DNA from: Myxococcales bacterium | Lineage (GTDB): Bacteria; Myxococcota_A; UBA9160; UBA4427 | Length of the DNA stretch: 64,000 nucleotides | Reading direction: 5' to 3' | Assembly (NCBI GenBank): GCA_014240165.1 | Contig: JAAZXM010000001.1 | Location: 1-64,000, forward strand | Shown: one piece after another, positions 1,529 to 42,740 of the stretch | Layout: every line of letters begins with the position of its first letter | How positions within the stretch are numbered: position 1 is the first letter of the stretch | Translations under genes and position numbers: made by a program | Notes under the pieces: model-generated | Told to the model about the DNA's origin: nothing | What the model saw: the letters and a program-made list of their open reading frames with translations, nothing else | Database searches by the model: none

Positions 1529-4468
1529 ATGGAACTCGACCATATCCACATCAAGGGCGCCCGGGAGCACAACCTCAAGAACGTCACTGTCCGCATCCCG
1601 AAGAAAAAACTCGTGGTGATGACCGGCGTATCCGGTTCGGGCAAATCATCCCTCGCCTTCGACACCCTCTATGCCGAGGGGCAACGCCGTTACGTGGAGT
1701 CGCTGTCCGCCTATGCGCGGCAATTTCTCGGCCAGATGGAAAAGCCGCGCTACGAAACCATTCGCGGCCTCTCCCCCACGATCTCCATCGAGCAGAAGAC
1801 CACGGGCAACAACCCGCGCTCGACGGTGGGCACCATCACGGAGATCTCCGACTATCTGCGGGTTCTCTATGCCCGGGTGGGGGTGCAGCACTGCCATCAA
1901 TGCGGCGCCCGGGTTGCGGGCCAGAGTGCCGAGCAGATCGCCCGGGAAATTCTCTCGGCACCCGTCGGCAGCCGGCTCAGCCTGCTCGCCCCCCTGCTGG
2001 TCAACCGCAAGGGCGAGTTTCGCGAACTCCTCGCCGAGGCACGCCGGGCGGGCTGGACCCGCCTGCGCGTGGACGGCGAGGTGGTAGAAAGCGAAGAGGT
2101 CGAGAGCCTCGACAAGCGGCGCAAACACACGGTGGAAGCCGTCATCGACCGCATCGTCACGGGCCCTCGCGTCCGCGGGCGGGTCACCGATTCGGTGGAG
2201 ACCGCGCTGCGAATCGGCGAAGGCACCCTCATCGTTCACGACGGCAAGCGCGACCGCACCTTCACCGAAAGCGCGGCGTGCTCGCGCTGCCGAATTTCGT
2301 TCCCGGAACTCACCCCCCAGGCCTTTTCATTCAACTCGCCCCAGGGCATGTGTGACGATTGCAACGGGCTGGGGACGCGCTTCGAATTCGACCGCGACCT
2401 CGTGGTGCCAGACGAAACCCTGAGCATCGAGGAGGGCGCCGTCCGACCCTGGGGCGAGAAGACATCCGAGAAAACCGGCTGGGGGGCCAACTACCGGCGC
2501 CAGTTGATGGAGCAACTCGGGATCAATGCCGATCGGCCCTGGCATAAGCTGCCCCAGAAAAAACGCGACATCCTGCTCCACGGGACCGATACCCGGAAAT
2601 TCAAGATCGCCTGGGAGAACCGCTCGGGCAAAGGCCATTTCGACGTCACCTGGGAGGGCGTACTTCCCCGGCTGCTACGCCGCTTCAAGGAAACCCGCAG
2701 CGAGGGCATGAAGCGCTGGTACAGTCAATTCATCGCCAACACACGCTGCACCACCTGCGATGGTCAGCGCCTGCGCGCGGAAAGCGCGGCCGTGCGCATG
2801 GGCGGCCGGAGCATCGTCGAGGTCTCGGCGCTCACCGTCACCGAGACCCACGCCTTCTTCGGCGAGCTTGCACTCCAGGGCGCAGACCGCGAGATCGCCG
2901 CAGAAGTTCTGAAGGAGATCCGCGGCCGGCTCAGCTTTCTCGAAGCCGTGGGTCTTGGCTACCTCTCTCTGGACCGCGCGGGGCCGAGCCTGTCGGGAGG
3001 CGAGTCCCAACGCATTCGGCTGGCGAGCCAGGTGGGCTCGGAACTCACCGGCGTGATCTATATCCTCGACGAACCCTCGATTGGCTTGCATCAGCGCGAC
3101 AACCGGCGCCTGCTCGACACCCTGATCCGAATGCGCGACGTGGGCAATACCGTCGTGGTAGTGGAGCACGACGAGGAGACGATTCGCAGCGCCGACCACG
3201 TGCTCGATTTCGGTCCGGCGGCGGGTGTGCTGGGCGGCGAAATCATCCATGCGGGTACGCCCAAGAGCCTGGAGCGCAATCGCAAATCTCTCACCGGCGC
3301 CTACCTCTCGGGTCGACGAAAGATCGAAGTGCCCGCCGAGCGCCGCACCGCGACCGGGGCGATCAAGATTCTCGGCGCCCGGGAGAACAACCTGCGCGAT
3401 GTAGACGTGGAAATTCCCCTGGGCGTGATGACCGCCATCACGGGGGTTTCCGGCGCGGGCAAATCCTCCCTGGTCAACGCCATCCTCTACCCCGCCCTGG
3501 CGCGCAAACTCCACGCCTCCACCCGCCGGGTGGGCGCCCATCGCCGCATCTCCGGGCTCGGCAGCCTCGACAAGGTGATCGATATCGACCAGCGACCCAT
3601 CGGCCGCACGCCGCGCAGCAACCCCGTCACCTACATCAAGGTCTTCGACGAGATTCGCCGCTTCTTTTCCCAACTGCCCGAATCCCGGATCAATGGCTAC
3701 AAACCCGGCCGCTTCTCATTCAATCTCAAAGGCGGGCGCTGCGAGAGCTGCGAGGGCGATGGCGTCCGCAAGATCGAGATGCATTTCCTGGCCGATGTCT
3801 TCGTGCGCTGCGAGGAGTGCCAGGGAAAGCGCTTCAACGAGGCCACGCTCCGGGTCCGCTACAAGGGGCTTTCGATTGCCGACGTGCTCGCCCTCACCGT
3901 GCGCGAAGCCCTGGAGGTTTTCGCCCATCACCCGAAAGTTGCCGGCCCGCTTTCCATGCTCGAGCGCGTGGGCCTGGACTACGTCCATTTGGGCCAGCCC
4001 TCCCCCACGCTCTCCGGCGGCGAAGCCCAGCGCATCAAACTGGCCCGGGAATTGTCGAAGCGCGCCACCGGCCGCACCCTCTACATCCTGGACGAGCCCA
4101 CCACCGGGCTCCACTTCGAGGATGTCCGCAAATTGCTCGAAGTCCTCAATCAACTGGTGGATACGGGCAACTCGGTGTTGGTCATCGAGCACAATCTCGA
4201 CGTGATCAAGACCTCCGATTGGATCATCGACCTGGGGCCGGATGGCGGACCCGGGGGCGGCGAGATCATCGCCGAGGGAACCCCCGAGGATATTCGGCGC
4301 CAGCGCGCGTCCCCCACCGGTCGCTACCTCGCCGGCTTGCTGGGCCCGCAGAAACGTCGCGCTGCCGCGCGAGGCGGCGCGCAAAAAAAGAAGAAGAAGG
4401 CCGCGGCCAGCAAGCGGCCGAAGAAGAAGGCCGCGCGCAAGGCCGCATCGAAAAAGGCCCGCCGCTAA
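1529..4468 (+). CDS. uvrA: UvrABC excinuclease subunit A
   Basis: Damage-recognition ATPase of nucleotide excision repair; it dimerises, loads UvrB on damaged DNA and leaves. Two ABC cassettes are visible: Walker A 'GVSGSGKSS' (residues 33-41) and 'GVSGAGKSS' (near 640), signatures '[12 protein letters not shown]' and '[12 protein letters not shown]', and Walker B 'LDEPSIGLH' and 'LDEPTTGLH'. Zinc-binding CxxC pairs are present (CHQCG; CSRC...CDDC; CESC...CEEC). At 979 residues it is about 35-40 longer than usual because of a C-terminal tail of Lys, Ala and Arg. A TATGCT hexamer at 1462-1467 could be a -10 element. It converges on the damaged hydrolase gene, only 7 bases separating the two stops. 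Confidence 0.97.
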
Positions 4469-4595
4469 GGGCGCATCACGAAGCCTCGGGCGTCGCCGCG
4501 GCCCACTCGAGGATCGACCCGTTGAGCTCCCGGGGATACGCGTGGGAGAGGTCGCCGATTTCGATGAGTTCGACCTCGGCCCCCGCTTCCTCGAG

Positions 4596-4632
4596 TGCAC
4601 CCGCCCCGCCTGCCCGGCCTACGCCAGAGCGC
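4596..4632. repeat. 37-bp inverted repeat, distal copy (breaks the hydrolase)
   Basis: Perfect reverse complement of 5442-5478. In the hydrolase reading direction it begins with GCGCTCTGGCGTAG and ends GGGTGCA. It sits between 'IHGAL' and the 'ALEEAG' remnant, where the family normally has about a dozen residues including the Asp-Trp that follows GAL. It supplies the premature TAG. Judged the derived copy because here it destroys the frame. Confidence 0.93.
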
Positions 4633-5441
4633 CGTGGATCCAACGAATCCGCACCCCGGAAGCCCGTTCGAGATTCCCCTTGGCAAGATTCCCGGGGTGG
4701 AGCACCGCGGCCACTGGCGCCAGCGCGGTGAACGCGGATGCCTCGGCCAGGCCGTGGAGCAGCGAATAGGTGCCCCCATCGGAGAGTCCCGTGAGCAAGC
4801 GGCAGCGTGGGTCAACGTTCCACCGGTCCTCCACGTAATCCAGCATGGAGCCCAGCGCCGGACCATCGAGATCGCGGCCCATCAATGACCAGGTGGTCTC
4901 GCGAGAAGTCGGCGCCAGCAGCAGCCAACCCCGGGTGCGCGCCTCCCGCAGCCAGGTCCAAAGAAAATCTCCGCCGTGCCCAAAGCCCCCATGAAGCGCG
5001 ACCACCAGGGGCCACGCCCGGCTCTCGTCGTAGTCCTCGGGCACGTAAAAGCTGAACCCCCCACGCGCTTCGGGATCGTTGCTGGCATTGAAAATCCCGG
5101 TCCGACCCGGCGCTGGGGACAGGGAGCTCAACGCCTGGCGGCGCGCTTCGGCGCCGGGCTCGAGAAAAAAACGGCCAAAGGCCGGCGCCACCGGGCAAAG
5201 CGGGTAAAGGGCCGCCTGGGCACGACAATGCGCACGCATCGCCTGCATCAAGCTGGCCACACCCGCATCCAGGCCCTGGGCTTCCGCCTCGACCTCGGCT
5301 TCCCCAAGGAAGAGTTCCGCCGCTCGGAGTGCATGGCCCGCCGCTTTCAGCAGCGCTGCTGCGACGGGCTCGCGTTCGGCCGAATAGGTTTGCGCCGATG
5401 CCCGGCTCAGCGCTTCGGCCAATCGATCCCGGGCCGGAGCC

Positions 5442-5478
5442 GCGCTCTGGCGTAGGCCGGGCAGGCGGGGCGGGTGCA
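5442..5478. repeat. 37-bp inverted repeat, proximal copy (in-frame)
   Basis: Perfect partner of 4596-4632 in opposite orientation, with 809 bases between the copies. Here it is read in frame as 'HPPRLPGLRQSA' inside the hydrolase N-terminal region and looks like ordinary coding sequence, so it is taken as the source copy. Confidence 0.93.
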
Positions 5479-5752
5479 ACTCGCGCTGGATCTTCTCGAA
5501 AACCACCAGCATCCCGAGTAAGGCGGGGCCCAAATGCCCTACGGCTTCCAGAAAGGGGCCATCGCGCCCAGCACGCTCGTGATCCGTCACCCGGGAACGC
5601 TAACCCAAAGCACCCAAGCGGACCGAGTCGTATCTCTTTCGCTGGATGGCTGCCTCAGGCTTGTGGGGTATGCTCTGCGCCCATTAACGACCCCAATCCT
5701 CTTCTTCCTCGACCGGACCCTCAGGTACCGAGCGAGCCCGAAAGGAACCGCG

Positions 5753-6475
5753 ATGAAATCCTGCATCCGAGCCGAAGCGATCGCACGAAGGATCGGCCTC
5801 ACGCTCGCCGCCTGCCTGCTCCTGGCCACATTCGTGACCGGCGAAGCGCTGGCCAAGGCCCCCAAGACCGAAGACGAGAAGACCCTTTATTTCATCGGCA
5901 TAGTGATCAGCAGTCAGCCCCCCTTCTCGACGCTCAAGCCCGAAGAAATCAACATGGTTGCCCAGGGGCTGAAGGATTCCCTGGCGGGTGAAACCATCGA
6001 GATCGACGCCACCGAATATGGCCAGAAGGTCCAAACCTTCGTCCAGACGCGGATGGAAGAGCAGATCGCCACGCAGAAGGCGGCCGGAGAAGCCTACCTG
6101 GCCAAGATGGCGGCCGCGGACGGAGCGAAGAAGACCGAATCGGGCTTGATCTACATTGAGAACGACGCGGGCGAAGGCGATTCCCCCAACCCCACCGACA
6201 CCGTGAAGGTTCACTATCACGGCACCCTCTCGGACGGCACGGTCTTCGACAGCTCGGTGGAACGCGGGCAGCCCGCCGAGTTCCCCCTGAACCGGGTCAT
6301 CCCCTGCTGGACCGAGGGCGTAGCCATGATGAAACCCGGCGGCAAAGCGCAACTCATCTGCCCCGCAGACATCGCGTATGGGGATCGCGGCGCACCGCCC
6401 ACGATTCCCGGTGGCGCCACCCTGACCTTCGAAGTGGAATTGCTGGAGGTCATGCCCGCCCCCGCCACCCCCTAA
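5753..6475 (+). CDS. FKBP-type peptidyl-prolyl cis-trans isomerase, exported
   Basis: Periplasmic proline isomerase/chaperone of the FkpA/Mip type. The 240-residue protein starts with a signal peptide ('LTLAACLLLATFVTGEALA'), then a helical N-terminal dimerisation-like region, then the FKBP domain from about residue 125: 'VKVHYHGTLSDGTVFDSS', 'FPLNRVIPCWTEGV', 'IAYGDRGAPPTIPGGATLTF'. The conserved Tyr, Phe-Asp, Trp and Ile-Pro positions of the active site are present. The ATG at 5753 has AAGGA 6-7 bases upstream. A TATGCT at 5669-5674 may be a -10 box. It is divergent from the damaged hydrolase and convergent with mazG, and forms its own transcription unit. Confidence 0.94.
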   Translation: MKSCIRAEAIARRIGLTLAACLLLATFVTGEALAKAPKTEDEKTLYFIGIVISSQPPFSTLKPEEINMVAQGLKDSLAGETIEIDATEYGQKVQTFVQTRMEEQIATQKAAGEAYLAKMAAADGAKKTESGLIYIENDAGEGDSPNPTDTVKVHYHGTLSDGTVFDSSVERGQPAEFPLNRVIPCWTEGVAMMKPGGKAQLICPADIAYGDRGAPPTIPGGATLTFEVELLEVMPAPATP

Positions 6476-41166: not shown

Positions 41167-42740
41167 TCGGCGTACCCCAGGGCTTCGAGGCGCGCCCGAT
41201 CCTCCGGGCTCAGGGGTGCGGGATCGCGCTGCTCCCGGGTATGGGCCCGGCGCCAGGCTGCGATTTCTGCCCGCATCGCCCGGGCGCGTTCGGGCTCCCG
41301 CGCGGCCAGGTTGGCCTTCTCCTCGGGATCCGCCTCGAGGTCAAAGAGCTCCAGGGTTCCCTCCTCGGGGCCTTCGATCAATTTCCAACGGCCTCGGCGA
41401 AGACCGAATTTCTCGCCCAGGGCAGCCGCGCCCTCGCCGGCGGCGCCTGCTGCGCCACCTGCAGCACTACCTGCAGCGCCACCTGCAGCACTACCCGCAG
41501 CACTGCCCGCAGCACTGCCCGCAGCACTGCCCGCAGCACTACCTGCAGCACTACCTGCAGCACTACCTGCAGCACTACCTGCAGCACTACCTGCATAGTG
41601 CCGCCGGTAGAGATGCACGGGCCGCTCGGCATCCAGCGCTTGCGACTCCAGAAGCGCTCCAGAGAGGCTCGCGCCGTGCGGGGCTTCGCTCCAGGGCATG
41701 CCCAGCACGTCGTAGAGCGTGGGGGCAAGATCGCTCAGGCGAACGGGTCCGGGAACCACCGCTCCCGGGGCAACCCGCCCGGGCCAGCGAACGATCAAGG
41801 GGACGCGAACGCCTTCCTCGTAGATGTGCTCGCCATGGTGCATATGGCCGTGGGACATCAAGCCCTCCCCGTGATCGCCGGTCACCACCACGAGGGTTTC
41901 GGTGTCGAGAGAGCGCCGTTCGAATGCCGCCAGCAGACGACCGATCTCCTGATCGGTATAGGCAAGAAGAGCGTCGTAGAAGAAGATCGTGCGATTGACC
42001 TTGAGTGCTTCACGAGGTCCGGGCACGAAGGGAGGATCGTAACCCTTGGGCAAGAGGTAGGGGTCGTGGGGATCGAAATAGTGCACGAAGAGAAAGAAGG
42101 GCTGCTCGGGATGGGCTCGCTCATCGAGCCATTCGAGCGCTCGCCGGGTGGTGTCGTCGGCCCGGCCGTAGAATTTGCCCTCGACCACACCCCCTTCCCA
42201 GAGCCGACTTCCGGCCAGGACATCGGCCTGGGAGAAATCCGCATCGAAATGATCGAAGCCCTGGGCAAAGCCAAAGGGCTCGGAGAGCACATGGGAACTG
42301 ACCACCGCCGCCGTCTCGTAACCCGCCGCCGCCAGGCGCTCCGCCAGGGTCTCGAACTCGTCTTCCAGGGGTCGACCATTCTTCAAAACACCGTGTGCAA
42401 TCGGGGGCAGTGCGGTGAACAGGCTCGCGTGGCTCGGGGCCGTGGTCGCCGAGGGCGCATACGCCGTTTCGAAAAGCATGCCCTCCTGGGCCAGGGCCCG
42501 CAGCGAGGGAGAGGTGTCTCGGGCATAGCCGTACGCCGAGAGATGATCGGCCCGGGTGGTATCCATCGAGATCAGCAGCACGTTGGGGCGTGGATCCTGG
42601 CGCCGGAGCTCGGCGGGATCCGGACCGCAGGACAGGGGCAGCAAGAACAAGGACAGACATCCCCAAAAACAACGATGCCTTCCGGCCCCATGCCCGTTCC
42701 CGTCCCGGTCGACGAAGCCACCCCGCATGGGCCGCAACAT
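41163..42740 (-). CDS. sulfatase-fold lipoprotein with GSAA minisatellite linker
   Basis: 525 residues; lipobox 'LFLLPLSCGPD'. Metal-site motifs 'NVLLISMDTTRADHLSAYGY' and 'LVVVTGDHGEGLMSHGHMHH'; nucleophile segment 'APSATTAPSHASLFTALP' with Thr at the formylglycine position. Between 'PVHLYRRHYA' and 'EKFGLRRGRWKLIEGPEE' it carries about 50 residues of Gly-Ser-Ala-Ala, encoded by 12-bp tandem repeats (41461-41592), in a loop just before the conserved 'RWKLI' strand. The C-terminal 'LFDLEADPEEKANLA' is typical of sulfatases. First gene of the pair; divergent from the GT2 at 42.8 kb. Confidence 0.88.
   Translation of the reverse strand: MLRPMRGGFVDRDGNGHGAGRHRCFWGCLSLFLLPLSCGPDPAELRRQDPRPNVLLISMDTTRADHLSAYGYARDTSPSLRALAQEGMLFETAYAPSATTAPSHASLFTALPPIAHGVLKNGRPLEDEFETLAERLAAAGYETAAVVSSHVLSEPFGFAQGFDHFDADFSQADVLAGSRLWEGGVVEGKFYGRADDTTRRALEWLDERAHPEQPFFLFVHYFDPHDPYLLPKGYDPPFVPGPREALKVNRTIFFYDALLAYTDQEIGRLLAAFERRSLDTETLVVVTGDHGEGLMSHGHMHHGEHIYEEGVRVPLIVRWPGRVAPGAVVPGPVRLSDLAPTLYDVLGMPWSEAPHGASLSGALLESQALDAERPVHLYRRHYAGSAAGSAAGSAAGSAAGSAAGSAAGSAAGSAAGSAAGGAAGSAAGGAAGAAGEGAAALGEKFGLRRGRWKLIEGPEEGTLELFDLEADPEEKANLAAREPERARAMRAEIAAWRRAHTREQRDPAPLSPEDRARLEALGYAE
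41461..41592. repeat. 12-bp minisatellite, 11 units
   Basis: Eleven head-to-tail units of consensus GCAGCACTACCT (plus strand), the variants being GCAGCGCCACCT, GCAGCACTACCC and three copies of GCAGCACTGCCC; the last five units are identical. A degenerate unit precedes it at 41449-41460. On the coding (minus) strand each unit reads Gly-Ser-Ala-Ala, so unit gain or loss stays in frame. Confidence 0.96.

Follow-up and report, generated by a model that had tools for sequence, protein, structure and literature searches.

The hydrolase locus and its setting

The window analysed here comprises the first 64,000 nucleotides (1-64000) of a contig of 221,032 bp, from a Myxococcales bacterium whose draft assembly (156 contigs, 4.28 Mb) is 94% complete and 1% contaminated. 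It includes a hydrolase gene, carried on the minus strand between its convergent neighbour uvrA (1529-4468, plus strand) and a gene for an FKBP-type peptidyl-prolyl isomerase (plus strand; listed open reading frame 5534-6475, with the true start probably at the ATG at 5754). The uvrA-hydrolase order is kept in the related genomes G001 and G002, and the wider arrangement MscS-like, uvrA, hydrolase, FKBP, MazG is found in G002, a member of the same genus, and in G001 up to the end of the contig. Further along the window, tandem 12-bp units (GCAGCACTACCT, GCAGCACTGCCC) occupy positions 41457-41595; the contig is otherwise poor in repeats.

The hydrolase reading frame (4619-5590, minus strand) begins with GTG and encodes 323 aa, while intact orthologues in the closest genomes have open frames of 374-394 aa (374 aa in each of G001 and G002). 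The window protein and one intact orthologue both match PF00756 (Esterase) weakly, just above the cut-off, and LC-Est1C and feruloyl esterases are among the solved structures matched. When the intact orthologue is aligned with LC-Est1C (3wyd), GLSDGG, HGxxD and the final His correspond, which assigns the nucleophile to GLSDGG, the acid to HGAxD and the histidine to LSH/LAH. With the intact orthologue as reference, the family therefore shows an alpha/beta hydrolase fold with a Ser-Asp-His triad. The window protein keeps the GLSDGG motif and its Ser; the catalytic Asp and His are both gone.

The orphaned 3′ end of the gene lies at 4476-4598 (minus strand) and comprises 40 codons and the native stop. 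This tail, ALEEAGAEVELIEIGDLSHAYPRELNGSILEWAAATPEAS, which reads ALEEAG...DLSHAYP...PEAS and includes the catalytic His codon in DLSHAYP, survives in another frame with its own stop at 4478-4476. A reading made earlier from the sequence alone (hereafter the sequence-only reading) had described precisely this separation of the His codon; in addition, the catalytic Asp of HGALD has been lost. Programmed frameshifting was considered and rejected, since the catalytic Asp codon itself is missing. Because both Asp and His are lost and a ribosomal frameshift could not restore the Asp, the truncated product should be inactive.

A 37-bp inverted repeat without parallel in the genome sample

The segment 4596-4632 matches the reverse complement of 5442-5478 at 37 of 37 positions, as the sequence-only reading had reported. 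Both segments lie within the hydrolase gene, 809 nt apart, and together the arms span 883 bp. From base composition, about 1e-12 such pairs would be expected by chance within 5 kb of each other in 305 kb. For an empirical background we scanned 902,723 bases (903 kb) sampled from the same genome for perfect inverted repeats within 5 kb. The next-longest were a 19-bp CT-rich simple repeat and an 18-bp palindrome, and no other inverted repeat of at least 20 bp within 5 kb occurred in the 903 kb, which makes the 37-bp pair the only non-simple one of at least 19 bp in that sample. The 37-mer has no further copies elsewhere in the assembly, and a mobile element or dispersed repeat was rejected on that ground.

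Identification of the ancestral copy

The copy at 5442-5478 (minus strand), near the 5′ end of the gene, is the source. It encodes in-frame HPPRLPGLRQSA, and the window protein at this point (LHPPRLPGLRQSAAPARDRL) aligns without gaps with the orthologues, of which many share LHPP; the same-genus genome G004 reads CTC CAC CCG CCG CAG ATT CCC here. That this copy is ordinary coding sequence, as had been proposed, is thus borne out, and the gapless alignment rules it out as the derived one.

The copy at 4596-4632 (minus strand), the reverse complement of the source, displaces conserved orthologous sequence. All 30 relatives examined carry HG(A/T)xDW(M/L)FP at this site. The sequence-only reading had proposed an orthologue alignment and a residue count, and these were run: measured between the HG histidine and the leucine of L(S/A/P)H, the spacing is uniformly 102 nt (34 codons) in the relatives (30 of 30), compared with 86 nt in the window. 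The 3′ copy is derived because every relative retains the longer spacing. By comparison with the orthologues, approximately 14 codons (42 nt, starting at the Asp of HGALD) were exchanged for 26 nt, with loss of D-W-M-F-P and nine further residues. The net change of -16 nt shifts the frame and brings in the TAG at 4621-4619 that now terminates the hydrolase reading frame; displacement, stop and frameshift all agree with what had been claimed for this copy.

Microhomology at the junctions

At the entry point, the window carries the 9-nt sequence GCGCTCTGG (4624-4632, minus strand), whose reverse complement lies in the source at 5442-5450. The same nine nucleotides are present in the G004 orthologue, which has GGCGCTCTGG at this position (native GGCGCTCTGGATTGG) within the codons CAT GGC GCT CTG GAT TGG ATG. 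The exact 9-mer was found in only one of the 30 relatives, G004. The sequence-only reading had guessed at a native microhomology here, and the guess gains support from the 9 bp in G004 (GGC GCT CTG GAT); by extension from that genome, the native sequence of the window's species plausibly carried GCGCTCTGG as well. We computed for the window that an inverted junction placed at random within 1.5 kb would share at least 9 bp with a probability of about 1e-5.

The exit point is marked by GCA (4596-4598, minus strand), which is common to the source (5476-5478); the native Ala codon before LEEAG was probably the same. The exit homology would then amount to 2-3 bp. Beyond GCA, CTCG follows in both sequences with a one-base offset, an imperfect match.

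Age of the lesion

Differences in the orphaned tail at the first, second and third codon positions number 8/8/16 against G002, 9/8/17 against G001 and 10/9/22 against G004. This third-position bias is the divergence pattern indicative of selection at the protein level. Since the two 37-bp copies are identical and the tail is undamaged and retains this bias, the lesion is recent, or else it is not biological.

A proposed template switch

We attribute the structure to an inverted template switch, a chemistry of which we are almost certain, whether it took place in vivo or in vitro; that it was a single, recent, microhomology-seeded event in vivo is our favoured and probable reading. Gene-sense strand synthesis would have paused with its 3′ end after GCGCTCTGG. 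Those 9 nt would have paired with CCAGAGCGC, about 0.8 kb upstream, located either on the folded-back nascent strand itself or on a same-polarity strand at the fork. Some 25-28 nt would then have been copied in reverse orientation, before a return through GCA to the original template about 42 nt further along. The outcome would be the 37-bp perfect inverted repeat, the net change of -16 nt, the TAG and the frameshift, leaving a fresh pseudogene lacking the Asp and His of the triad.

Written in the four-point notation in the direction of the gene, the switch has the order 3-2-1-4. The features of that model are found here: a stretch exactly reverse-complementary to one nearby (37/37, 809 nt), an ancestral source together with an insert displacing native sequence, and microhomology at the switch points, with 9 nt at entry seen in G004 and about 3 nt presumed at exit. 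The microhomology-seeded template switch that the sequence-only reading had advanced is thus supported by the orthologues, by the 9 bp of G004 and by the spacing in 30 relatives, and the mechanism is probably right.

Comparison with known template-switch systems

The mutation class and its mechanism are already known; the present instance is new and unusually legible rather than a new system. The pattern 3-2-1-4 ranks among the two most frequent in great-ape genomes and allows intra-strand switching (PMC7954356). Short-range four-point switches in primates likewise include 3-2-1-4 events in which one reverse-complemented insert displaces a native stretch and leaves one inverted repeat; the event described here differs in its bacterial host, its longer reach (about 0.8 kb) and the 42 nt passed over from point 1 to point 4 (PMC7954356). 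In starving E. coli, microhomology-mediated switches are likewise bounded by a pair of inverted junctions whose homologies are short (3-30 bp in that system), although the embedded duplications measure 5.2-42.6 kb compared with a 37-bp insert here (PMC3161906). Small inverted switches have been attributed to switching within the replication fork, whose dimension in E. coli is quoted as roughly 1.5 kb (PMC3161906), and the 883-bp span of the arms falls inside that size.

Quasipalindrome mutations, known from thyA and the lacZ QP reporters of E. coli, similarly involve a nascent strand templated by itself or its sister, and create or perfect an inverted repeat (PMC7202029). Their arms, however, are adjacent and derive from a pre-existing imperfect palindrome, whereas in the hydrolase gene they stand 809 nt apart with about 9 bp of prior complementarity (PMC7202029). 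Judged from G004, these roughly 9 nt over 809 nt are not the prior imperfect inverted repeat with short spacer that a strict definition of quasipalindromes demands. The switch distance of about 0.8 kb exceeds that of classical quasipalindrome events, and this counts against the in vivo reading.

Alternative explanations

The same sequence could have been left by phi29 amplification or by single-strand fold-back during library preparation, that is, by in vitro fold-back priming fixed in the assembly where the consensus drew on thin coverage. Chimeras formed by phi29 are mostly inverted (85% of 475), short-range and microhomology-primed, with primer complementarity in 93.5% of the inverted joins less than 10 kb apart, and they share the intervening deletion with the event described here (PMC1855051). 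They arise in vitro, normally with one junction per read, whereas the hydrolase gene has two junctions in a large contig (PMC1855051). That the genome is a draft of 156 contigs also speaks for such an origin. An artefact would nevertheless require one molecule to have switched twice and to have gained majority support, at a site inside a 221-kb contig, and the scan of 903 kb revealed no second inverted repeat of at least 20 bp within 5 kb. The hydrolase is, moreover, the only frame-broken gene among 58 orthologue-like open reading frames compared (24,093 aligned aa). Two apparent further broken genes were set aside in this count: one near gatC proved to be a non-coding extension upstream of gatC, and the other, at the boundary with a neighbouring amidase gene, was judged an overlap effect. 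Single amplified cells seldom reach a completeness of 94%, and the same gene is independently broken in G004; both count against a chimera. These indirect tests disfavour an artefact, which we consider unlikely while giving it more weight than any other alternative, and we infer that the switch occurred in the cell.

Two further origins within the cell carry far less weight. Repair of a double-strand break by end joining, with capture of a stray fragment of the same gene, would also be expected to yield a small templated insert accompanied by a deletion, with microhomology on either side, but the 9-nt entry and approximately 3-nt exit homologies fit primed synthesis better and an exact inverted capture from the same gene is less parsimonious; we regard it as very improbable. 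The recombination site that the sequence-only reading had offered as an alternative is marginally less credible still and did not find support. Perfect inverted arms around a coding segment do recall an invertible segment in which the arms act as sites for flipping the 809-bp interior. That interior, however, lines up colinearly with every orthologue, the 5′ arm belongs to the ordinary ancestral coding sequence, the repeat is unique in the assembly and the relatives lack a second arm. The 3′ arm ruins conserved sequence rather than joining alternative ends, a flip would place antisense sequence in the gene, and among the surrounding genes that were inspected no recombinase stood out. The locus thus has neither two meaningful orientations nor conserved recombinase-linked sites.

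The hydrolase gene in the genus and implications

The G004 hydrolase is disrupted by an independent, out-of-frame deletion of 287 bp (two conserved motifs lie 46 nt apart instead of 333 nt), in a draft with 8% contamination. The deletion lies at L034 (G004:C113), around positions 616-626, and removes about 95 residues. Two of the four orthologues of the genus were therefore found broken, one by the inverted template switch in the window and one by this deletion. Since the G004 orthologue is broken by a different lesion, the data suggest that the gene is dispensable in the genus. Repeats that recur in the form GTTATGTTAAAT...GGACGTTGTGC, at intervals of about 0.7-4 kb and reminiscent of integron attC cassette arrays, were also observed in two species of the genus (L096, 1816-1844/3043-3071; L090, 6643-6684/7367-7408; L110 and L101 of G002).

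Where an inverted copy breaks a frame in a draft genome, it should be supported by reads before the gene is called a pseudogene. It is improbable that fork-associated rearrangement has a lineage-wide hotspot at the hydrolase locus, as two breaks by different events of microhomology type might suggest; if it had, the uvrA-FKBP region would offer a natural reporter with which template switching could be followed in an uncultured lineage. If the event itself is real, it is a natural example, unusually easy to read, of inverted template switching in a bacterium: the source, the entry homology, the copied and skipped lengths and the return point can all be followed, and it would place the distance of such a switch beyond that of the laboratory quasipalindrome hotspots.
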